From positions 930,001-994,000 of the forward strand of contig CP075895.1 of assembly GCA_018604165.1 (NCBI GenBank): a stretch of DNA of 64,000 nucleotides, given 5' to 3'. Numbering within the stretch: position 1 is the first letter of the stretch; every line of letters starts with the position of its first letter. The position numbers were made by a program, and so were the translations under genes. The DNA is from Chitinophagaceae bacterium LGM1. Lineage in GTDB: Bacteria; Bacteroidota; Bacteroidia; Chitinophagales; Chitinophagaceae. Shown piece after piece: positions 1,659-18,817 of the stretch. Below the pieces are notes generated by a model, which was not told where the DNA came from, searched no databases, and saw nothing but the letters and a program-made list of their open reading frames with translations.

Positions 1659-1880
1659 GTTATTTCATATGACAATGCAAACTTCGTCTATTTGTAGTAA
1701 TAATGTAAAGTAATTCAACACGGCAAAGACAAGTTTTCTCTTGAAAAACTAATCTGTATTTATATACTTGTATCTAGTCAAGCTATAGTAATGTGACTTC
1801 AAACATTATTGGCTTGTTTACGGCTATCAGGCTATATGATTGTATGTACTATGAGTTTTTGAGATTTGCTTATCTATAAA

Positions 1881-1905
1881 ACGTGGTTCAATTCCCCGTG
1901 GGACC
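1881..1905 (+). repeat. tRNA 3'-end-like fragment, candidate attachment site
   Basis: The segment contains a T-loop-like GGTTCAATTCCCC, then TGGGACC, which could be the 3' half of an acceptor stem. The T-stem would have one mismatch. No matching 5' acceptor (GGTCCCA), D-arm or anticodon arm is found upstream, so it is not a whole tRNA. Integrases often leave such 3' tRNA pieces at the edge of an element, and a tyrosine recombinase gene starts 590 bp downstream. I did not find the second copy in this window. Confidence 0.3.
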
Positions 1906-1955
1906 GTATGAGAGCAATGTTATACAGAAACTAGATACTTACAATATAACGCCTG

Positions 1956-1979
1956 ACACCAATGGTCTGGGTGTTTTTT
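1956..1979 (+). terminator. Weak terminator-like hairpin
   Basis: ACACC and GGTGT form a 5-bp stem around a 9-nt loop and are followed by a run of T. It sits about 50 nt after the tRNA-3'-like fragment, where a tRNA terminator would be expected. Confidence 0.35.
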
Positions 1980-2106
1980 ATTTTATAACATATCTTTTCA
2001 AAAGTCAACATCCTTTGCCTTGGTAAAGCCTAACAACATTATTTCAATTATCACTTGCAATAAGTCAAGCTATCAGTATTGTGCTGTTATATAAATTGAT
2101 TGAGCA

Positions 2107-2517
2107 ATGGTAATTGAGTTATTGTTATTTACTCTTTACCATTTGCAGATGCCTATCATCGAAAGAGCAAAGATGAAAGTATGCACCTTTTGTTGGGAGT
2201 TTCACGACCAATATATGAAAGGTGTAGATTTTAGTTATGCAAGAAAAGAAGCAATAACAGAATGTTGGCTTTGCCAACAGTATATGTGTGCCGACTGCCA
2301 GGCAAGTTCACAAAAGGAATTAAAAGAAGATGTTTTGAGCATCTATTGATTAATGATGTGCAAGCGTTGTATAACACAAGTGCGAAGATTAACTACTTGG
2401 CACAAAGAGTATGAGCAAATAGTAGAAAAATGACTAGATAAGTTTAAGACCGCTATCCGTAAAGAGATTTATATCCTAACCCAAGCAAAACATGCCGTTA
2501 GTGATAGACACCTATAG
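2107..2517 (+). CDS. Cys-rich small protein with two in-frame UGA codons (UGA read as Gly)
   Basis: With the standard code this frame stops at TGA 2347-2349. Reading through it and a second TGA at 2431-2433 gives 136 residues ending at TAG 2515-2517. The Cys pairs then continue across the first TGA: CTFC, CWLC, CADC, then CKRC, which suggests one zinc-binding protein rather than a short one plus debris. Trp is encoded by TGG three times, so UGA is unlikely to be Trp here. The start could also be ATG 2149 or 2173 (MKVCTFC). Its end overlaps the start of the recombinase by 26 nt in another frame, as in a compact operon. Function unknown. Confidence 0.6.
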
Positions 2518-3463
2518 CGACTACTTTTTCTATCTTCAATACAGAAGACGTTCTGTTGAAACAACCGTCACGGCAAATAAACTTGCTCTTAAATACTTTT
2601 CATCCCTTTACGGAAACATGGAAACGCACAAGTTGACACCAATACACATGGTGAGATTTCATGAGAAGTTAATTCAGACCAAAAGGTTGCAAAGAAATAA
2701 TAAGGGAGAATACGAACTCCTTAGTAGATACTCAATATACAAGATAATGGTGAAGCTAAGAGCTTATATAAGACGGTTGGAAAGTGATTGATTACTTTGA
2801 GACTTGAAACCGATTGATGTTCCTATAGGTAACGTTCCACGTCCTTTGCCTAAGCACATTGAAAAGGAAGACCTAAAGAGGATTTTACTGCATTTAGAGA
2901 AAAAGGTAAAGAACCTAAAAAGTACATCGAGTAAAAATGCAAAGTATAGTGCGTACTTGAATCGTGCGATTATCCGATTTTTATATACGACTGGGCTTCG
3001 TAATGCTGAATTAAGACTAATAAAACTACATGATATAAATCTAAACACGCTAACGGGACAAGTTTTAGGAAAGTGAAATAAGTTTGCGCCGATAACTTTT
3101 AGCCAAACAGCAATGCAGCATTTGGTTGAATATCTTGATGTGAAGAAAGAGACATTTCCAGGCGAGGCTATTGATTATGTTTTTACACCATACATACGCA
3201 GAAAAAATCAGTTTTATACTGAACATGGTTTGAATTGCTTGGTAAAAACTATTGGTATTTCAGCGGGTGTATGATTTACGAATTGTCATAGTTTTCGCCA
3301 TTCATTGGCCACGCATCTTGTGCAAGATGGCGTTAATATAGTTCAGGTTAGAGATAAACTTCGCCATAGTTCGTTGACAGTAACAAATATGTACGTATGG
3401 AGTAACCCGACAGAACAGATGTCTTTAACACAGGGCATTGACGCAACGTTACTAAAAGAATAA
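2492..3463 (+). CDS. Tyrosine recombinase/integrase with four in-frame UGA codons
   Basis: One continuous frame of 323 residues from ATG 2492 to TAA 3461-3463 if TGA at 2789, 2798, 3074 and 3272 is translated. The N-terminal part (about residues 1-100) is a SAM-like core-binding domain. The catalytic domain shows Arg I in 'TTGLRNAELR', the beta-hairpin Lys in 'VLGK-UGA-NK', the box III 'HSFRHSLATHL', the second His in 'LRHSSLTVTNMY', and the nucleophilic Tyr in the same segment. The family consensus at the hairpin is GKGNK, so UGA = Gly restores it exactly. Under the standard code the protein ends after 99 residues and has no active site. TGG is used for the one clear Trp. Confidence 0.85.
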
Positions 3464-3507
3464 AGGCAAGTTAGACGGCTAAAGATCTTTCTTTATCAAC
3501 TTAAAAG

Positions 3508-3545
3508 ATTATCAATAACTGATAATTTGGGAATGATAATTATCA
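3508..3545. promoter_or_regulatory. Clustered TTATCA/TGATAA inverted repeats between integrase and toxin gene
   Basis: ATTATCA at 3508-3514 and TGATAAT at 3520-3526 form an inverted repeat with a 5-nt gap. A perfect 12-bp palindrome, TGATAATTATCA, follows at 3534-3545. A further TTATCAA lies at about 3493. The shared half-site suggests binding of one dimeric protein, either as an operator for the toxin gene or as recombinase arm sites. No binding protein is known. Confidence 0.4.
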
Positions 3546-3709
3546 ATTTAATAGATTGGCTTGCATTCACCCCAAACTATCATAGGATAAGATATACAAT
3601 GTCAATATAAAATCTTTCAAAAAGAGGAATCTGTAAAGATTCGAAAATGGCTTCGTAGGCGGTAACTATCTAGGCAAGACATTATTATTTTACCTCTTAA
3701 CGAAACGCC

Positions 3710-4255
3710 ATGACGAAAGAATACCAACTAGACATCTGCCTGAAAGAACTATCTGAATGAAAAAACACTTTTTTAGAAAGCTACAAAATTGCCTTGCGAG
3801 AGGATTTTGTGACTAACAACTCGCCTAAAGAGCACAATTTTCTAAACCATGTAACTAGTTTCTTAATGATGTTGAAAAGAAACAGTTACCCACTTGTAAA
3901 GAAGCCATTTAAGAAACGAGAAATTGTTGTTGTAAGCTTTTGATTAAATGTTGGTTCGGAAGTCTCTTTTGAAAGGCCATGTTTGATCTATAAAGATTCA
4001 AAGAGCACTCTTTGAGAGGATGTAATTGTAATCCCACTGACAACAGCAACGATTGACAAAAAGCAAGATGCATTTGATGTCTATGTGCCTAAAGACACTA
4101 AGAATTGTCTGTATGCCAACTCTTGGGCTCGTCTTCGTCAACTCCGTTCTGTATCCATTAAGAGACTAGGAAAGGTAGTGTGAATAATTGAAGATGATAA
4201 AGTGAAAGAAGCAATAAACACTAGGGTTAAAGAAATGCTTTGAACCGAAGCATAA
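3710..4255 (+). CDS. PemK/MazF-family toxin with five in-frame UGA codons
   Basis: Continuous frame of 181 residues from ATG 3710 to TAA 4253 if TGA at 3758, 3941, 4013, 4181 and 4241 is translated. After a helical N-terminal extension of about 70 residues comes the SH3-like MazF core: 'KKREIVVVSF-UGA-LNVGSE', then 'FERPCLIY', 'EDVIVIPLTT', and a C-terminal 'IKRLGKVV-UGA-IIEDDKV' ending in 'KEML-UGA-TEA'. The family has Gly before the NxGSE segment and commonly ends in LLG, so Gly suits UGA. MazF-type proteins are usually mRNA interferases. With the standard code only 16 residues would be made. No antitoxin gene is seen. A terminator follows directly. Confidence 0.8.
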
Positions 4256-4258
4256 GAA

Positions 4259-4285
4259 AACCCCTCACGAAGAGGGGTTATTCTT
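4259..4285 (+). terminator. Rho-independent terminator of the UGA-containing block
   Basis: AACCCCTC (4259-4266) pairs with GAGGGGTT (4272-4279) around a 5-nt loop, followed by ATTCTT. It begins 4 nt after the TAA of the MazF-like gene, supporting 4255 as the true gene end. Confidence 0.75.
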
Positions 4286-4429: not shown

Positions 4430-4726
4430 ATGGGACATTGGAAAAGACAACCCCAGGAACGAGACGGTAGCTACGAGTTCTCTGGACAGTTATACGCTAC
4501 CAAAGGAGTGTCTAACGAACTATCTGCAGACGAAATCTTGTCTATCTATCAGGATGTACAAGCATTTGCAAAGAACAAACACGGCATTGATTACCTGCAA
4601 GTCTATAAAGACGAGAAAGGCAGAAAGCTGTTTTTCATAGACCAATTAAATAGGGAAATGATAAATAGTGGTGAGTATGCAGAAGAGGATAATCATTGCA
4701 CTTTGATGTTTGCAAGCGAATACTAA
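4430..4726 (+). CDS. Small acidic hypothetical protein
   Basis: 98 residues, ATG to TAA, standard code with GGN glycines and no internal TGA. It has no signal peptide or membrane segment. The C-terminal half ('FFIDQLNREMI' and 'NHCTLMFASEY') looks like a compact soluble domain. I do not recognise the family. It is the first standard-code gene right of the UGA block, which places the block's right limit between 4285 and 4430. Confidence 0.6.
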   Translation: MGHWKRQPQERDGSYEFSGQLYATKGVSNELSADEILSIYQDVQAFAKNKHGIDYLQVYKDEKGRKLFFIDQLNREMINSGEYAEEDNHCTLMFASEY

Positions 4727-4912
4727 CTAAAGATGGTAAACGGGTATACCTGGTGCAGATAGCCTTCGGCGAGTAACTTGCTCCATTTACGCAGCTTAAA
4801 GCATGAAGCGTATATAGTCAAGACTTTGGGGAAAGGGCTGCATTCCGCGTTTGTACTTCAAGCCTCCTGTTCTCAGGGGGCTATTTGTAATGCGGACTTT
4901 GTATTACAAATA
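4727..4912. repeat. Intergenic region with nested inverted repeats
   Basis: A strong hairpin (AGCCTCCTG, 4-nt loop, CAGGGGGCT) spans 4861-4882. A second inverted repeat, TTTGTAAT and ATTACAAA, spans about 4884-4910. On the minus strand, about 40 codons (4723-4850) are open and read plausibly ('KWSKLLAEGYLHQVYP'), but no start or family is apparent. It may be a dispersed repeat, a remnant gene end or a structured RNA. Confidence 0.35.
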
Positions 4913-4927: not shown

Positions 4928-5704
4928 GTGACAGACATTAATACATATCTCACATCTCTTGCTGAAAAACTTGTTCTTGATGATCCTCTTAAGGAGAAAA
5001 TTGAGACTTCCATTGGACATCTACGTTCAAAAATATGGGGTCTGTTTCAAGAAAAGCTACTCAATATAACCGTTTTTGGTTCATATGACCGTGGGACGAT
5101 TATTCCGATTGGAGCAGATATCGATGTTGATATACTTGTTGTGTTTAAGCAGAATGAACTTCAGCCAGATACTTATTTGAAACATATACGTGACTTCTGT
5201 GAAAAAAACTATCCTAAATCCGAAATATACCAAGATCATCCAACCATTGTCATAGAGTTGAATCATATAAAGTTTGAGATTGCACCCTCTTTTAGCCACT
5301 CAAATGGTAGCGTAAAAATACCTGCATCCAGAAGTGAGAAAGTATCTTGGATATCTACTTCACCAGCAGACTTTAAAAGTAAGCTACTGGCAAAAGATAA
5401 AGGCAATAAGGGATTGATAATACCGCTAGTAAAGTTATTTAAATATTGGAACAACCTGAATGGCAAACCTTTTACTTCTTATGAGTTAGAACGGTTTATT
5501 ATAGGCAAAGAATATTTCTCATCAACATTACGTGAATATTATTTTGCTGTTTCAACTGGCTTAGATTCGTTAGCTAATACAGAGAAGCAAAAGGCAGCAG
5601 TTGCTAAATTGAAAGAATGTAACAGAAGAATAAAAGGCCTTGAGCAAATAAAGGTATTCGAGTATATAGAAAATGAATTGCAAACATTCCTGCCTCCAAT
5701 ATAG
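4928..5704 (+). CDS. CBASS cyclic-oligonucleotide synthase 1 (SMODS-type CD-NTase)
   Basis: 258 residues, GTG start, TAG stop. The nucleotidyltransferase signature 'FGSYDRGTIIP' begins at residue 50 and is followed by the metal-binding acidic cluster 'ADIDVDILVVF' (Asp 64, 66, 68). The third acidic position is in 'IKFEIAPSF', where Glu117 replaces the more usual Asp. CD-NTases make cyclic di- or trinucleotides in response to phage infection, and these activate a nearby effector. The next gene encodes a membrane effector and the third gene a second CD-NTase, so this is a type I-like CBASS without the Cap2/Cap3 ancillary genes. The product cannot be predicted from sequence. Confidence 0.85.
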   Translation: MTDINTYLTSLAEKLVLDDPLKEKIETSIGHLRSKIWGLFQEKLLNITVFGSYDRGTIIPIGADIDVDILVVFKQNELQPDTYLKHIRDFCEKNYPKSEIYQDHPTIVIELNHIKFEIAPSFSHSNGSVKIPASRSEKVSWISTSPADFKSKLLAKDKGNKGLIIPLVKLFKYWNNLNGKPFTSYELERFIIGKEYFSSTLREYYFAVSTGLDSLANTEKQKAAVAKLKECNRRIKGLEQIKVFEYIENELQTFLPPI

Positions 5705-5760
5705 TCTATACATCTTATACACTGTAAACTTTATGTATCTTCAGTTTTCGAACAATAAGT

Positions 5761-6543
5761 ATGGCAGCACTATATGCACCTCAATACAATCTTTATAAAA
5801 TCATAGGCAAGATAAAACTAGCTTCAAATCTCGCTTTCTGGTTGATTTTTATACTGTCTATCATCCCAACGGGATTGAAGTTACTTAATTTCACTTGGGC
5901 TATCGATGATTTGCTGAATATTTTGAATATAATACTGATACTAGTTTACTTTGTTCTTGACGTAATAACTGATCAAATATTAATTCCACAAGCAGAACAA
6001 AAAAGGAGAGACGATTTTATTGACAATTCGTTCGATTCAAAGTTTTCAGTAAATAATTCAGTTCAGTATTATGATAATGAAGAAGTAAACTATGGACTTT
6101 ATAAAGCAGCCACAAATCAATTTCAAAATTGTTTTACCACTTATTCTCTCATTAAATTAATAACTCCTCAAAAAATTGTAATTCCGTCTGTTATTGTAAT
6201 TGTAATTTGGATAGTTGCTTATTTTGGCTTTAAAGAAGTGCCATTTTTCTTATCGTTACTACAAGTGTTATTTTCAGCAAGCATACTTGGAGGTTTAATA
6301 AAACATTTAATTCTGTTCAATAGGCTGTCAGTTATTTACGATGATTGGGTTAAGCTTTTCCAATATGAAGATTTTGACGATGCAAGCATCAAGTATAATA
6401 GCTCGATAATTAGGAATTGGTTACGCTATGAAACTTTGGTAGCTAAAATATCGGCGGATATTCCTGATACTTTTTTCAATAAACATAATTCACGTCTTAC
6501 CCAGGACTGGATGGCTTTAAAAGTTAAGTATAATATACATTAA
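5761..6543 (+). CDS. S-4TM family CBASS membrane effector
   Basis: 260 residues with four hydrophobic segments in two pairs (about residues 22-42, 51-69, 139-157 and 160-180). Between the pairs is a soluble part with 'QKRRDDFIDNSF', typical of the SMODS-associated four-TM (S-4TM) family. Such effectors are thought to disrupt the inner membrane when the cyclic nucleotide binds. The gene lies 56 nt after the first CD-NTase and 2 nt before the second, in the same direction, so co-transcription is very likely. Confidence 0.8.
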   Translation: MAALYAPQYNLYKIIGKIKLASNLAFWLIFILSIIPTGLKLLNFTWAIDDLLNILNIILILVYFVLDVITDQILIPQAEQKRRDDFIDNSFDSKFSVNNSVQYYDNEEVNYGLYKAATNQFQNCFTTYSLIKLITPQKIVIPSVIVIVIWIVAYFGFKEVPFFLSLLQVLFSASILGGLIKHLILFNRLSVIYDDWVKLFQYEDFDDASIKYNSSIIRNWLRYETLVAKISADIPDTFFNKHNSRLTQDWMALKVKYNIH

Positions 6544-6545
6544 TC

Positions 6546-7352
6546 ATGGCTGTATCGATTGATAACTATTTAAGAACACTAGCATCCAGTTATTATTTGA
6601 AGAATGACTCAACTGAGGTTGAGAAAATAAGTAAATCTCTTGCAAATCTATTGTCCAATTTAGATAAGGAGTTAGGTGTACTTATTAAACGTAGATTTGT
6701 CTTTGGATCGTATGACCGTGATACCATTTTACCACGTTCTATTGATAGTAGATCTGATGTGGACATAATGGTAGTATTCAATCATACTGAATACGAACGT
6801 ACTCCAGAAACATATCGTGCTTGGCTGAAGAACTTTGCAGACAAATATTACAAAGACAGATACGATTCTGAGGTTGTAAAATCTTTCCCGACTGTTACAA
6901 TTAAGCTAAATCATATAAGGTATGACTTAGTTCCTGCGAAAGAAACGGAGTATCAGTATGTAACTAACACGCTATATATTCCCGATGGTGGTAGTAATTG
7001 GAGGACTACAGACCCTAATGATGTTAAAAAGAAATTGACAGAAGCGAATACACGCTACAACAATGTAGTGAGACCGATTATTAGACTTATGAAAGGTTGG
7101 AATAGTACCAATAGCTATCCATTTGATTCGTATGATTTAGAGATGAACATTATTGGCATGAACTTTCATGGTGACAATGTGCAATCAGGATTAATTTGGG
7201 CTGCAAGATATCTATCCATAGCTAATACACAGACACAAAATGATAAATTAGCTAGTTTGCAATACAATATTGGTAAAATGGAAGAATCGTTAAACGATAA
7301 CGATTTGGAAAATGCGAAACGATGGCTTCATAGGGTATTTCCAAATGCTTAA
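6546..7352 (+). CDS. CBASS cyclic-oligonucleotide synthase 2 (SMODS-type CD-NTase)
   Basis: 268 residues, ATG to TAA. 'FGSYDRDTILP' starts near residue 53, followed by 'SDVDIMVVF' (Asp 71 and 73) and the third acidic residue in 'IRYDLVPAK' (Asp127), so all three metal ligands have the usual identity. It is clearly paralogous to the CD-NTase at 4928-5704 but much diverged. Two synthases around one effector are unusual: one may be regulatory, or they may respond to different triggers or make different signals. It is the last gene of the operon; the next gene is convergent. Confidence 0.85.
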   Translation: MAVSIDNYLRTLASSYYLKNDSTEVEKISKSLANLLSNLDKELGVLIKRRFVFGSYDRDTILPRSIDSRSDVDIMVVFNHTEYERTPETYRAWLKNFADKYYKDRYDSEVVKSFPTVTIKLNHIRYDLVPAKETEYQYVTNTLYIPDGGSNWRTTDPNDVKKKLTEANTRYNNVVRPIIRLMKGWNSTNSYPFDSYDLEMNIIGMNFHGDNVQSGLIWAARYLSIANTQTQNDKLASLQYNIGKMEESLNDNDLENAKRWLHRVFPNA

Positions 7353-7427: not shown

Positions 7428-9908
7428 CTAACTAGTCCCTCCTCCAATTGCAGGTGGCAGCACCACAGATGGCAATATCACAGGAGTTCTAATAGAGTCT
7501 ATAATGACCAAATAGTTCCCTATATGTGCTAATAGCTCATTTAGAGCAGAACTTGCTTCTTTATCTGCATGTAAAAAGTTTGCGTAATTACAGTACTTAA
7601 ACACTTTTTCTATATTATCTAAATCCGAGTCTGAGAGCCTTCTAATCTTACTTTGAGTATCCTTAAGGTTAGTAGTTATAACAGAAAAGTTATCATCCTT
7701 ATTCCACATTAAAAGTTCATTTTTTATAAATCTTTCTACAGACAATCTTAAAAGATGCCCATAGCGTAAGGCACATTCTTCAAGGTTTAACGTCCCAGCC
7801 ATAGCAGAAGCCATTAAACCAGTATGGCAATTTTTTAGATCATTGTGTAAATCATAATCTCTAGCAGCATCAAAAAATATAAATGATCCCCCAAATGCAG
7901 GCACATTCTTTAATATTCCAAACTTATTAGGATTTGGATTTTCTTTTTTAGATAAATATTTAGAAAAAAGGGGATGGTGTGTAAACACAAAAACTTGCGA
8001 ATAGGCTGGAACTTGCTCGAAAATTACATCTGACAGTATTTTTAGATTTGCGGCATCCAAGCTAGTTATTGGATCATCAAATAATAATACTTTATTTGCT
8101 TTATCTGCAACATTCTCGTTTATGGCAAAGAAAAAAGCCAACGAAATTAATTGTCTCTCTCCTTCTGAAAGACCAGCCTTAATATTTCTTTCTTGACCAT
8201 TTGCATCCATAATCTTAAATGCAAAAGGTATATCAACAGTGGCATTAGTGACCCTATGAGGTTGAAGGGTAAACGAAAGATTAAATCTTCCAAGAAAGTG
8301 CATCATTTTATCCAACACAAGCGTTGGAGCATGAGTGTTAATATATGTTTCTAAATCTCTTTTGGCACTTGAATGTTCTTCTTTTAATGCTGCTTTCCTA
8401 GTTGCCAGATCGTTATATTCCGCTATTTTATTAAAAAGATCCTTTTCAAAGAATTGATAAGTAAAGTGTAAGTCAGATAATTGGGTTTGTTTTACTTCTA
8501 TTTCCTGAACAATTGTCTCAATGTTTGAATATTTGGCTTTAAATAATTCAAACTTTTCTGCAAATGATTGAATATACCTATTAGCCTCATTTAAAGCACT
8601 AGTCATATTCACAAAATGCTCTTCAATTGCTTTATGCAATTGCATATAACTTGGAGTAGAATTATCAAGTTTTTTTAGCTCTTCCAATGCTAATTCTAGG
8701 GTTACAAGTTCTTCAGGATAAAGTGAGATTTGAACTAACTTATCATTAATATTTTTACGTTCCGTAAAAAATGTGAGGTTTTCATTTTCTGACTTTTCTT
8801 CTGAACCTGGTACTTTTTCAAAAAATACTTTAGAAAACTCATAATCGATCCACACTTTTTGAATGCTGTCCATTGTCTGATTGAAAACAATAGGTAGGTT
8901 GCGCGCTTCATCAACTAATGACTTTAATTGAGCTTTTAGAGCGTTGATATCATCAATAAATCTTTCCTTTTGCTGTTTATACTCTTGATTAAAGAAACTA
9001 TTATAAGCAGCTATTACGTCATCCTGACCTTGTAGCGACTGTAAGCAGAATGGACAATTATCTTTTTGATCTGCATCTAATATTTGTAGCCCTTTCTCAA
9101 TGAAATCTTTGTGCTTTTGTATATGTAGTGTAATTTGTTCAGAAGCTTTTAGAACTGTTTCATTTTCTATTTTCCTTTTGAAGATTTCCTCCAGGCTACT
9201 AATAGCGGGAACGCTGACATTTAAAGAAATACTGCTTGGTGTAGTTATTGTTGATACAGCAACAGTTTGTGTCCTACGAACTTTTAGCTCCTCAATTGTA
9301 TCATTTGTGTTTTTATAATTGTCAACATTAGTTCTTCTAAACTGATTTCTTTGCTCATCATTCTGACCCTTTATTTGCGCGTATATTTCTAAGTCCTGAG
9401 GAAGAAATGATTGGTTTAATTTAGTATAGTTTGCTGTTTCAAAATCATCAAGTGCTTGTTTCTTAATTTCTTCAGTGCCTTTCTTTGTGATTGCTTCAGC
9501 ATCTAATTCGACCAAAAGTTTACCAGCATTCTGGCTATGCTTATTTCTCTCGTTACTTCTTTCTCCATTAGTATGGACATTATCATCTATGAAGTTTTGG
9601 TCGAAAAAAAGAATAGAGTTTTGAGGGAGATAGTTATTCCAACTCGTACCATTATAAGTATGTATATTACTGTCGATCTTTAACTCAACGGAGGTAGGCT
9701 TACTACATAAATCACTAAATGGAGTATGCTTAGTTATGTCTTTTAAGATTTCTGATATCGAACTCTTACCGCATCCGTTTTCGCCAAATAACAAATTGAA
9801 GGGATTAAAAGACTGCTCACTTCCGTCGGCAGCCTTGCAGAAATCAGACCATTTGAAGTCATGAAAAGACTTATAACCTACAATTTTACTTATCTTCTTG
9901 ATTTTCAT
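7428..9908 (-). CDS. RloC/AAA_13-like zinc-hook ATPase, probable defence protein
   Basis: 826 residues. Walker A 'GENGCGKSS' at about residues 42-50; long coiled coils interrupted by the zinc-hook motif 'CPFC' near residue 288; ABC-type signature 'GLSEGERQLISLAFFF' near 580; Walker B 'LLFDDPITSLD' near 608; switch His in 'FTHH' near 640. This SMC/Rad50-like architecture is typical of RloC and related AAA_13 proteins, several of which are anticodon nucleases or DNA-damage-sensing defence factors. The last 180 residues are helical, with 'ANFLHADKE', but I cannot identify the RloC nuclease motif, so nuclease activity is unproven. It is divergent from the HEPN gene at 10027. Confidence 0.7.
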   Translation of the reverse strand: MKIKKISKIVGYKSFHDFKWSDFCKAADGSEQSFNPFNLLFGENGCGKSSISEILKDITKHTPFSDLCSKPTSVELKIDSNIHTYNGTSWNNYLPQNSILFFDQNFIDDNVHTNGERSNERNKHSQNAGKLLVELDAEAITKKGTEEIKKQALDDFETANYTKLNQSFLPQDLEIYAQIKGQNDEQRNQFRRTNVDNYKNTNDTIEELKVRRTQTVAVSTITTPSSISLNVSVPAISSLEEIFKRKIENETVLKASEQITLHIQKHKDFIEKGLQILDADQKDNCPFCLQSLQGQDDVIAAYNSFFNQEYKQQKERFIDDINALKAQLKSLVDEARNLPIVFNQTMDSIQKVWIDYEFSKVFFEKVPGSEEKSENENLTFFTERKNINDKLVQISLYPEELVTLELALEELKKLDNSTPSYMQLHKAIEEHFVNMTSALNEANRYIQSFAEKFELFKAKYSNIETIVQEIEVKQTQLSDLHFTYQFFEKDLFNKIAEYNDLATRKAALKEEHSSAKRDLETYINTHAPTLVLDKMMHFLGRFNLSFTLQPHRVTNATVDIPFAFKIMDANGQERNIKAGLSEGERQLISLAFFFAINENVADKANKVLLFDDPITSLDAANLKILSDVIFEQVPAYSQVFVFTHHPLFSKYLSKKENPNPNKFGILKNVPAFGGSFIFFDAARDYDLHNDLKNCHTGLMASAMAGTLNLEECALRYGHLLRLSVERFIKNELLMWNKDDNFSVITTNLKDTQSKIRRLSDSDLDNIEKVFKYCNYANFLHADKEASSALNELLAHIGNYLVIIDSIRTPVILPSVVLPPAIGGGTS

Positions 9909-12485: not shown

Positions 12486-12658
12486 ATTATTATGCTTATC
12501 GCCTTTACACAGCTATATTTATTAATGATGAATATATATGTTTTTGCTTTGTAAGCCTACTATAGGGCAATTTTTTTCAAATCATCCACCTTATCGACTA
12601 TTTTACACGTCTTATTTCACAGTCTAAACACAACGGAGTTTGGCTTTAAAGATAAATT

Positions 12659-13240
12659 ATGGTAGCCAAGATAAACTACAACGATATTAAAGACTTAAAG
12701 CCAGAAGCAGCCTACTATTATATTAAAGGGATAAAGAAGGGACTGGTGACAGAGGTTGTGTTAAGGGACATTCTACATGAATGTGCACTTGACAAACAGG
12801 TTGCTGGCATGTCCTGGTGGGAGCTTTCGCCTCGTGGTGTTTATATGTTCTTTGATTCAGAAGACATTTGTAAGTATGTAGGGCAAACCCATAGGAGTTT
12901 TTATGACAGACTACTTACCCAATTTGACACTACGCATTATCCTGGCTTCGGGTGGAACTCCTTGTTAAGCATTTTAAGTTGTAAAAGGCTGAATAAGCCT
13001 CATGCGGAGATATGCGAAGAAGACCATGAGATAGACTTTGAAACGGTAGGTAACTACAAACTCTTATTGATCGAGGTTGATAGAATTGAGGAAATCACGC
13101 CTAAAAACATAGTGTGGATTGAAAAAGTGTTACTTAAGACTTATAGAGAAATGGAGGATGAGCAGTTGCTGAATGGCAATATCGGTTGGCTGGAAAGAGA
13201 CTGGTGGGGAATGACAATAAACGAAATCGTATACTCCTGA
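12659..13240 (+). CDS. GIY-YIG nuclease-like protein
   Basis: 193 residues. 'RGVYMFF' (Gly60-Val-Tyr62) and 'CKYVGQTHRSFYDRL' (Tyr73-Val-Gly75, Arg84) reproduce the GIY...YVG core with the catalytic Tyr and Arg. A Glu in 'IVWIEKVLLKTY' near residue 158 is placed like the family's metal-binding Glu. GIY-YIG domains cut DNA in repair, homing and restriction enzymes. The gene stops with TGA at 13238-13240, 10 nt before the TIR gene, so the two are almost certainly one operon. The first 50 residues are a helical extension of unknown role. Confidence 0.65.
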   Translation: MVAKINYNDIKDLKPEAAYYYIKGIKKGLVTEVVLRDILHECALDKQVAGMSWWELSPRGVYMFFDSEDICKYVGQTHRSFYDRLLTQFDTTHYPGFGWNSLLSILSCKRLNKPHAEICEEDHEIDFETVGNYKLLLIEVDRIEEITPKNIVWIEKVLLKTYREMEDEQLLNGNIGWLERDWWGMTINEIVYS

Positions 13241-17168: not shown

Positions 17169-17999
17169 TCATTTTACATAATGTTTAAGCCTGCCCATTT
17201 CGCCATTTGCTAATCGTTGTTGCGTATCCCGCATTTGCTCGTTAGTTGTCATCACAAACGGGCCGCCATATACAATGGGTTCGTTAATGGGCTTTCCTGT
17301 GGCGTACATAAACTCAAACCCTGTTGCATCTGCATTTACCTGCACCATGTTGCCTCCTTTGTTGAAATTAACAAGTGTTTGTGCTGTTACATCCGTTGAT
17401 TCAATTTTCCCGTTTCCCTTCAGGCCATATACAAATGCCATTTCATCCGCATTTAACTCAATGGATGTGTGTGGATTCAGAAAGATGTGAAACAGGTGAA
17501 CATCTGTTACTAATTTGTATGGAGAGTGTTTACCATTAAATGCCCCGTGTATTATTCTGAGTTTATAGTTGTCTGTTAGTACTTCAATAATTTCATCAGT
17601 ATTAGCATGCATGGATTTCGGTGTTACATACCTATCCTCATTTTTGTGGTTTATCCAAATCTGAAAACCGTGCGTTTCAATTCCTGTTTCTTTCGGAAAC
17701 TCATCATGAAACATGCCAGTACCCGTTTGTGAAATATGCAAGCCGCCCGGTTCAATGTGACTAAAGTCGCCAAGGCTATCGCGGTTAATGAAGCCTTGCT
17801 TGCTTTCAGGCAGCATATAGGTCATAACGGAAACACCAGCATGTGGGTGCGGCCCGAAAACAGGCCTATCCATCAAGAACTCTGTAAACACCAAAAAAGG
17901 TTCTATTGGGTAGTTGCGCTCCATGATATTAACACCACGTAAGCCGGGGAAATCATTCGTAAATGCCAGGTTCGATTTCTTTGAGATAGATTTGTTCAT
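17169..17999 (-). CDS. Pirin family protein
   Basis: The ATG at 17999 (MNKSISKKSNLAF) is preferred; the upstream ATG at 18047 adds residues unlike pirin N-termini. 'GPHPHAGVSVMTYML', 'GGLHISQTGTGMFHDEF' and a Glu/His-bearing 'THGFQIWINH' give the bicupin metal-binding site of the pirin N-terminal domain; a second cupin-like half follows. Some pirins have quercetinase-like activity and others act as regulators; the substrate here is unknown. Stop TGA. Confidence 0.9.
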   Translation of the reverse strand: MNKSISKKSNLAFTNDFPGLRGVNIMERNYPIEPFLVFTEFLMDRPVFGPHPHAGVSVMTYMLPESKQGFINRDSLGDFSHIEPGGLHISQTGTGMFHDEFPKETGIETHGFQIWINHKNEDRYVTPKSMHANTDEIIEVLTDNYKLRIIHGAFNGKHSPYKLVTDVHLFHIFLNPHTSIELNADEMAFVYGLKGNGKIESTDVTAQTLVNFNKGGNMVQVNADATGFEFMYATGKPINEPIVYGGPFVMTTNEQMRDTQQRLANGEMGRLKHYVK

Positions 18000-18124
18000 T
18001 GAGCCGTATGTTGAATAACTCAAAGTTATGCTGTTTGCACCGGGCATTTACAAAGACATTTTCTATTGCGTTATAAATGCTTTGCTTTTTTATACTGTAC
18101 AGGAAGAGAATCTTATTTCCCAAC

Positions 18125-18817
18125 CTATTTAGTCAATAGCAACTGTGCCTTTACTTTGGCATAGTAAGGGCGTACCCTGGAAGGGGCATAGTAGAGCAGG
18201 GTAGTAAAGAACAGCGCGCCATATACATCGTACGTGTAGTGTATGCGCATACTCAATACCATAAAGCCCATCAGTAGCGTAGCTATGCACATGTACGCTT
18301 TCAGGTATTTGTGCCTTGCACACAGGAAGTATATCCATATACTGGCTACATGCCCGCTGAAGAACAGGTCTTTGGTAAGAGGGGCGTTGTGTGGGTAAAC
18401 GGTGTTTTCTAAAAACACATCGCGCAACACGATGATGCCTGTAGGCGGTTCTAAAGCTATGAGCAATATACATATCTGCCTTACAACGGCTACCATAAAG
18501 TGCATCTCTATTAGCCTGAAGATGGCTTTGGGCTTGTGTAAGTGAGTAAGTATCAGCGCGAATAAAGAAGTATATAGCAGTATGAAAATAAGGGTAGAAA
18601 AATCGTAACTGGGAAAGAAAGACAACATTTTATCTTCCAGCCTTACGCCTTTGCGGGCTTCAATATATGCGCCAAGTTTTTGAGTAATGGCCGAATATAT
18701 GATGAACAAAGCAGGCATTACCAGCAGCTTCCATCTGAATGATTTATCCAGCAGTTCTGTACGCCAAGCCTGTATTAGTTGTATGAAATATATTTGTAAG
18801 CCCTGACTTTGTTGCAT
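18125..18817 (-). CDS. PAP2-like phosphatase (sphingomyelin synthase-like C-terminal family)
   Basis: 230 residues with about six membrane segments. 'FFSGHVASIWIY' supplies the SGH motif and 'MRIHYTYDVYGAL' the HxxxD catalytic pair of lipid phosphatases in the PAP2_C family. The likely role is dephosphorylation or head-group exchange of a membrane lipid. Confidence 0.75.
   Translation of the reverse strand: MQQSQGLQIYFIQLIQAWRTELLDKSFRWKLLVMPALFIIYSAITQKLGAYIEARKGVRLEDKMLSFFPSYDFSTLIFILLYTSLFALILTHLHKPKAIFRLIEMHFMVAVVRQICILLIALEPPTGIIVLRDVFLENTVYPHNAPLTKDLFFSGHVASIWIYFLCARHKYLKAYMCIATLLMGFMVLSMRIHYTYDVYGALFFTTLLYYAPSRVRPYYAKVKAQLLLTK

Follow-up and report, generated by a model that had tools for sequence, protein, structure and literature searches.

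The window analysed here, 64,000 nucleotides of Chitinophagaceae bacterium LGM1 (bases 930001-994000 of one 3.32 Mb contig; genome 99.99% complete), carries at 2107-4255 three adjacent open reading frames (ORFs) on the + strand. They contain 11 in-frame TGA codons (2 + 4 + 5), all at the positions given in a preliminary description of this DNA, which took UGA to stand for glycine, and end in TAG (2517), TAA (3463) and TAA (4255). The products are a Cys-rich protein, a tyrosine recombinase and a MazF/PemK-like protein, and the conserved pieces of the island reach beyond the three genes, starting with a promoter at 1741 and ending in a terminator near 4895. When we scanned the 64 kb by eye for long frames interrupted by UGA, only these three stood out, and the same scan of 26 kb of fetched flanks gave no further convincing UGA-interrupted gene.

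With TGA read as Gly, the recombinase matches PF00589 (E = 2.7e-23), and a profile built from five copies matches XerD (1a0p) with an E value of 1.9e-23. Arg170, Lys194, His266, Arg269, His292 and Tyr301 are invariant across these copies, and the predicted protein has the complete residue set of PF00589 tyrosine recombinases (R, K, HxxR, H and Y), to which we presume the catalytic roles belong. The product of gene 3 matches PF02452 (E = 2.4e-16) over residues 68-176 of its 181, and matches the MazF 4mzm (E = 9e-5) with X put at every UGA. Gene 1 probably starts at ATG 2149, where conservation begins in a six-copy alignment, and not at 2107 as first proposed. Its product is 33-79% identical to five relatives, with eight invariant cysteines, belongs to no family in Pfam, NCBIfam, PHROG or PADLOC, and gave a structure model with a predicted local distance difference test (pLDDT) score of 67.5. 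A PHROG scan of the four island proteins (the fourth is described below) matched the recombinase as an integrase and gene 3 as MazF-like, and the other two to nothing.

Counting the window, we found five full copies of the block in four genomes and three genera of one Bacteroidota family. The others are loci L043 (UBA6221; same locus as in genome G353), L044 (UBA1947; genome G959), and L053 and L054, which are both in G970. A profile search of 394 family genomes matched six: the own genome, G353, G959, G970, G812, with a partial copy (L056) on a contig that stops inside the recombinase, and G886, whose relative (L055) is clearly dead, with a TAG inside and no recombinase or MazF-like gene in 12 kb. 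With the first protein as query, a search of 396 genomes from the order returned two, the own genome and G353, which has the whole block. Among 395 genomes of the phylum, the search matched the own genome and one weak candidate that contains TAA codons and has none of the four island genes within 10 kb around it. A scan of genome contigs, which used exact peptide patterns only, also for Absconditabacteria and Gracilibacteria, gave 50 candidate stretches, of which two, L043 and L044, were true relatives, both in Bacteroidetes records. In plasmid records, 1914 had a generic recombinase (below 60% identity among the 20 matches listed), one had a MazF match at 31%, and none matched the fourth gene; an IMG/VR hit for the Cys-rich protein (L045) was spurious, being an unrelated frame on a contig of 64% GC. 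The suggestion that the contig might be chimeric does not hold, since the same block recurs in several genomes and the window lies in a single contig.

Table 1. Coordinates of the island features in the window (L043, L044, L053 and L054 are the other full copies)
Feature	Position	Strand	Remarks
Promoter of RNA unit 1	1741-1768	+	TTGAAA (1741-1746), 16 bases, TATACT (1763-1768)
RNA unit 1 (ncRNA1, non-coding RNA), small RNA or leader specific to the island, ending in a terminator of its own	1775-1985	+	
TTCAATTCCCCGTGGGACCG, T-arm/acceptor-like 20-mer	1887-1906	+	invariant in four of five full copies
Intrinsic terminator of RNA unit 1	1950-1981	+	hairpin and T run, same place in L043, L044, L053
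Inverted repeat that includes a promoter-like TTGCAA and may be the operator/promoter of the operon	2047-2115	+	by eye
Gene 1, Cys-rich (putative Zn-binding) protein	2107-2517	+	2 UGA: 2347, 2431; likely start ATG 2149
Gene 2, XerC/D-like tyrosine recombinase	2492-3463	+	4 UGA: 2789, 2798, 3074, 3272
Gene 3, MazF/PemK-like protein, extended by about 65 residues at the N terminus	3710-4255	+	5 UGA: 3758, 3941, 4013, 4181, 4241
Intrinsic terminator after gene 3, AACCCCTCACGAAGAGGGGTT	4258-4285	+	from sequence; similar hairpins in L043, L053, L054 by eye
Linked island gene, 98 amino acids (aa)	4430-4726	+	no UGA in four copies; absent from L054
Non-coding, conserved end piece (ncRNA2) that includes a terminator and closes the shared island core on the right	4734-4895	+	

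UGA is found in the recombinase (2-4 codons per copy) and the MazF-like gene (1-5) of all five full copies, and in the Cys-rich gene of three of them and of the partial copy L056; no full copy without UGA was found. The three frames are indeed free of internal TAA and TAG, as had been pointed out, but this follows from the way in which the frames were drawn. The real evidence lies in frame lengths that agree between the five copies (323, 326, 325, 324 and 319 codons for the recombinase and 179-187 for the MazF-like gene) and in the glycine codons that other copies have where one copy has TGA.

Together, the three genes of the five copies hold 35 UGA and 107 GGN codons. The 35 UGA codons fall in 20 alignment columns, and one of them, close to the end of the recombinase gene of L054, might simply terminate it. 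The copies without UGA at a given column contribute 65 sense codons, of which 25 are Gly, 6 Ala, 5 each Gln, Asn and Ser, 4 each Glu, Lys and Asp, 3 Arg, 2 Thr, 1 His, 1 Val and none Trp. Summed BLOSUM-type log scores over the 20 columns are +14.96 for Gly, 4.12 for Asn, 3.18 for Ser, 0.67 for Ala, -3.1 for Arg and -16.28 for Trp, so that Gly leads all other residues by more than 10 log units and a reading as Trp is rejected. UGA also sits on glycines shared with XerD, in TTGLRN (L043 and L054) and in GKGNK (the window and L054), the latter already named in the preliminary description, as was the use of TGG in all three window genes; across the copies TGG is present in 13 of 15 genes. From these alignments it is close to certain that UGA stands for glycine in these genes, as had been claimed.

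Between copies, 43-70% of the residues are identical, whereas the third bases of fourfold-degenerate codons agree in only 30-44% of the shared codons. Such near-saturated sites beside conserved residues indicate that the frames have long been under selection with UGA as a sense codon for Gly; on this and on the codons at the UGA columns, random decay is rejected. Codon usage of the block without UGA correlates with that of the flanks (r = 0.87 in the window, 0.64-0.92 for its single genes against the rest, and 0.82-0.93 for the five copies against their own flanks), the GC content at third codon positions (0.345-0.438) is near that of the flanks (0.324-0.385), and the share of CGN among Arg codons lies at 39-46% for the window, L043 and L044 and at 28-30% for L053 and L054. 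Since correlations with the flanks of other copies are equally high, the usage is Bacteroidota-like and not host-specific. It speaks for residence in Bacteroidota and not for a recent import, and would be compatible with an ancestor that used genetic code 25, in which UGA is glycine.

Judged by gene content, UGA is a stop codon in the host, the island genes aside: prfB, which codes for release factor 2 (RF2), scored above the cut-off in 5/5 carrier genomes (G812, with its partial copy, included), and 5 of the 43 mechanically called long ORFs of the window end in TGA. A genomic tRNA-Gly with anticodon UCA, proposed earlier as a check, was not found: none of the 37 typed tRNAs of the own genome has this anticodon, in a list that is incomplete and also lacks Ile(GAU) and Ala(UGC). 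The Rfam tRNA model listed 43 hits, 38 of them over the cut-off, with 150 of 184 candidates scored and 34 unscored; the 38th is a tRNA-like piece where ARAGORN finds no gene. ARAGORN found no tRNA in the window, L007, L043, L044, L053-L056 or L058, and its relaxed, intron-allowing mode gave noise only, among the matches listed. A short tRNA pattern had 100 matches in the five carriers, without an individual inspection of the parts upstream of them. A stricter UCA-tRNA pattern matched 14 of 388 family genomes and none of the five carriers, and three of its matches have by eye an anticodon arm around UCA. Two of these, L120 (G907:C241) and L121 (G928:C6), are organelle-like contigs within prokaryote assemblies, with COX1 and cytochrome b in code 4 frames, and were rejected as probable contamination; on the third, a fragment, ARAGORN detects no tRNA. 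A tRNA-Gly(UCA) pattern matched four IMG/VR contigs, three sharing the same stretch, without a tRNA according to ARAGORN, and a GC-rich fourth whose tRNA has a four-base anticodon.

Two oddities of the own genome were seen along the way. A 73-base tRNA at G000:C1:1925776-1925847 (L017) is typed as Ser(ACT) by ARAGORN and lacks the long variable arm usual for tRNA-Ser. At G000:C1:3027864-3028030 (L008) there are three degenerate tRNA-like pieces in tandem, one of them without a normal anticodon arm.

Upstream of the operon lies RNA unit 1, whose promoter follows the form TTGAAA-N16-TAYAST common to L043, L044 and L053 and, by eye, also L056. Bases 1777-1783, at the 5' end of the unit, are able to pair with 1951-1957, the 5' arm of its terminator, by eye with 6 of 7 pairs in the window and with 8-10 pairs and compensatory changes in L043, L044 and L053; L056 has a different helix of 11 pairs. 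Including the terminator, the fold scores against shuffles are z = -2.0 to -5.4 (six sequences). Those of the core without it (+0.3, -1.1, -1.3 and -1.6 in four sequences) are no better than chance, and RNAalifold gave no shared fold of the core. The unit matches no Rfam family at gathering score. It contains TGGGACC, resembling what we take to be the T-box motif UGGNACC; despite this, the T-box riboswitch RF00230 had no match at E values up to 5 (window) or 10 (L044 and L053). An exact copy of the 20-mer TTCAATTCCCCGTGGGACCG is found in 4 of the 394 family genomes, every one a carrier, but not in locus L054; the same stretch forms the 3' end of a tRNA-Asp in four closely similar IMG/VR contigs. 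In L044 and L053 this region has a perfect T-stem; the window shows one mismatch in it, and L043 has lost it. A cloverleaf or T-box identity of the unit is supported neither by ARAGORN nor by Rfam, RNAalifold or the core fold scores, and an attachment site seems unlikely by eye, both sides being conserved.

Between this unit and gene 1, the operator-like inverted repeat reads ATTAYCACTTGCA..TGCAAGTGGTAAT in L043 and L044 and has, by eye, a compensatory change in L053. A TTATTT(T)AC motif about 20 bases before the start codons of genes 1 and 3 (window 2120-2150 and 3682-3712) is seen in several copies, and these two genes have by eye no obvious Shine-Dalgarno sequence.

The fourth gene codes for a 98-aa protein, 57 and 61% identical to its homologs in L043 and L044 and 65% to that in L053, with a match to DUF960 (PF06124) that is below the cut-off (E = 0.0018). 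Its four copies have 25 GGN and no UGA codons, against 107 GGN and 35 UGA in the block (35/142); the Fisher p value of 0.0026 is optimistic, the copies being related. The end piece that follows is present in the window, L043 (twice), L044, L053 and L054, and its fold scores (z = -0.5 to +1.0 in five sequences) do not stand out from those of shuffles. In L043, the 3' end of the 98-aa gene and the end piece are repeated about 5 kb apart (12590-12750 and 17980-18260; end pieces 94% identical), possibly a site of insertion or accretion, with a Cas9-like gene after the second copy. Beyond the end piece the copies carry different cargo, a viperin-like radical SAM protein in L044 and the Cas9-like gene in L043. 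In the window, two cyclases of the CBASS type (PDLC00769) flank a four-transmembrane (4TM) effector at 4928-7352, in the order cyclase-effector-cyclase, which bears out the defence setting ascribed to this DNA. Just upstream of the block in L043, a RelE-like toxin ORF (9107-9346; phrog_1213, E = 1.7e-8; no Pfam match) has two UGA codons, one at KI-UGA-PRGDIYKR, and the ORF directly before it (8811-9101) has none. A 109-aa frame in L043 (13973-14302), without a Pfam match, has one in-frame UGA and is perhaps recoded too.

Comparison of the predicted proteins shows that UGA stands for glycine in the recombinase, the MazF-like protein and, in three of five copies, the Cys-rich protein, while the carriers keep RF2. 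As an explanation, we propose that the island family is resident in one Bacteroidota family and keeps its recombinase and toxin locked behind a UGA-glycine spelling, with the decoder missing; we give this close to an even chance, slightly on the lower side. The island appears resident because its codon usage is host-like and its promoter and non-coding pieces are shared between copies, and the use of UGA appears gene-specific because the 98-aa gene and the ORF beside the RelE-like one do without it. In a normal cell, translation would stop at the first UGA, and recombinase and toxin would stay off. This codon precedes the presumed catalytic residues of the recombinase, and lies before or within the MazF domain, in 5/5 copies. 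Full-length proteins would be made only in the presence of a glycine-charged tRNA that reads UGA, coming from a helper (a phage, a plasmid or contact with a code-25 organism) or from the island itself, as a molecule that does not look like a tRNA. Recombinase activity would then mobilise the island, defence cargo included, and RNA would be cleaved by the MazF-like protein, so that the code difference may keep the island's dangerous genes tightly locked. The wider proposition, that cellular islands in standard-code bacteria have such a private lock, opened by a decoder in trans or by a new non-cloverleaf RNA such as RNA unit 1, is a tentative one, possible at somewhat less than even chance.

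Several observations weigh against the lock. No decoder was found, so that translation through UGA can only be inferred, and the up to 11 UGA codons of an operon are much for any suppressor. IMG/VR, phage and plasmid records hold no close relative, and thus no helper is in sight, and the Cys-rich genes of L044 and L053 have no UGA at all. We had also considered selection for UGA itself, since UGA fills four copies in 2 of 16 all-Gly columns, a result that 84 of 100000 label shuffles reach. The argument was removed by an Arg control, in which 20 of 27 all-Arg columns are unmixed for AGR or CGN: first-base exchanges seem to be slow anyway, and the constancy of UGA columns is no argument.

As for rival explanations, the genes could have evolved in a code-25 bacterium (Absconditabacteria or Gracilibacteria), its phage or its plasmid, and have entered Bacteroidota repeatedly without being translatable there. 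The lack of a decoder tRNA in the carriers would fit such a silent import, as would the literature, in which bacterial UGA = Gly is described for this candidate phyla radiation (CPR) group only, as far as excerpts of PMC8629427 go. In the sections of PMC10746230 on its phages, these share spacer matches with Bacteroidetes and other bacteria: 23 putative phages of these CPR lineages are also matched by spacers of other bacteria; five of nine Gracilibacteria phages, all nine workable in both codes, are matched by Bacteroidetes spacers; and of five Absconditabacteria phages two clearly use code 25, these two being matched by spacers of standard-code bacteria. The carriers, however, belong to one Bacteroidota family only, the two relatives among the 50 stretches of the exact-peptide scan are both Bacteroidetes, codon usage is host-like down to the CGN share of Arg codons, and the conserved fourth gene has no UGA. 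We regard silent import as unlikely, though a serious contender, and the code-25 origin suggested at first is, as a recent event, unsupported on the same grounds, though conceivable.

The decoder might instead be made by the island, RNA unit 1 being or yielding an aberrant glycine tRNA that reads UGA, with a T-arm/acceptor-like 3' part. Its own promoter and terminator, the 20-mer found exactly only in carriers, the perfect T-stem and a weak mascRNA (tRNA-like) match below the cut-off in both L044 and L053, and the presence in one genome of L053, with the 20-mer, alongside L054, without it, are in favour. Against this idea, which we consider rather improbable, stand the absence of a cloverleaf and, by eye, of a full 5' acceptor strand and of any UCA common to the copies besides the T-loop-like TTCAA, the T-stem lost in L043 and mismatched in the window, core folds no better than shuffles and without a shared structure in RNAalifold, and a G after the acceptor-like strand, where U73 is usual for bacterial tRNA-Gly. 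It is very improbable that UGA means Trp, Arg or another residue, or that the frames reflect pseudogene decay or a faulty assembly: L055 is clearly dead, and UGA = Trp occurs in code-4 phages (in excerpts of PMC10746230), but the scores for Trp and Arg are far below that for Gly, TGG is used in most gene copies and independent genomes agree.

The island shares with genetic code 25 of Absconditabacteria (SR1) and Gracilibacteria the use of UGA for glycine beside GGN glycine and UGG tryptophan. It differs in that only a few genes are recoded, three ORFs by eye in the 64 kb window and not a whole genome, that its hosts have RF2, expected to be absent under code 25, and that the own genome uses TGA stops; no tRNA-Gly(UCA) is recognisable in the hosts, with the own tRNA list incomplete. 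Stop-recoded phages (Lak and crAss-like with TAG = Gln; code-4 with TGA = Trp) are likewise mobile elements that use a host stop codon to write some of their genes, possibly with the effect of holding back or limiting expression, according to parts of PMC10746230 and PMC9523058. The island, in contrast, has Gly and not Gln or Trp, recodes a recombinase and toxins and not late structural or lysis genes, is without a suppressor tRNA by ARAGORN and is not recognisably a phage. Its recombinase has the catalytic domain and conserved residues of XerC/XerD-like and integron integrases (XerD 1a0p, XerC-like 4a8e, IntI4 2a3v) but 2-4 UGA codons, and the gene 3 protein has the PF02452 domain of MazF/PemK toxins over its C-terminal part but an extra N-terminal part, no adjacent antitoxin identified and 1-5 UGA codons.

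Excerpts of PMC8629427 and PMC10746230 report bacterial UGA = glycine in two CPR lineages and their phages, and our literature search gave, among the matches listed, no report of it in Bacteroidota or their islands. Gene callers split such UGA-containing genes into fragments, which is a warning. Should RNA unit 1 be the decoder, it would represent a new class of decoding RNA. A UGA = Gly spelling long kept in a few genes of Bacteroidota islands, in hosts that have RF2, would mean that a mobile element can have its own code without changing that of its host, and these islands would allow tests of how differences in code control toxins and the transfer of genes.

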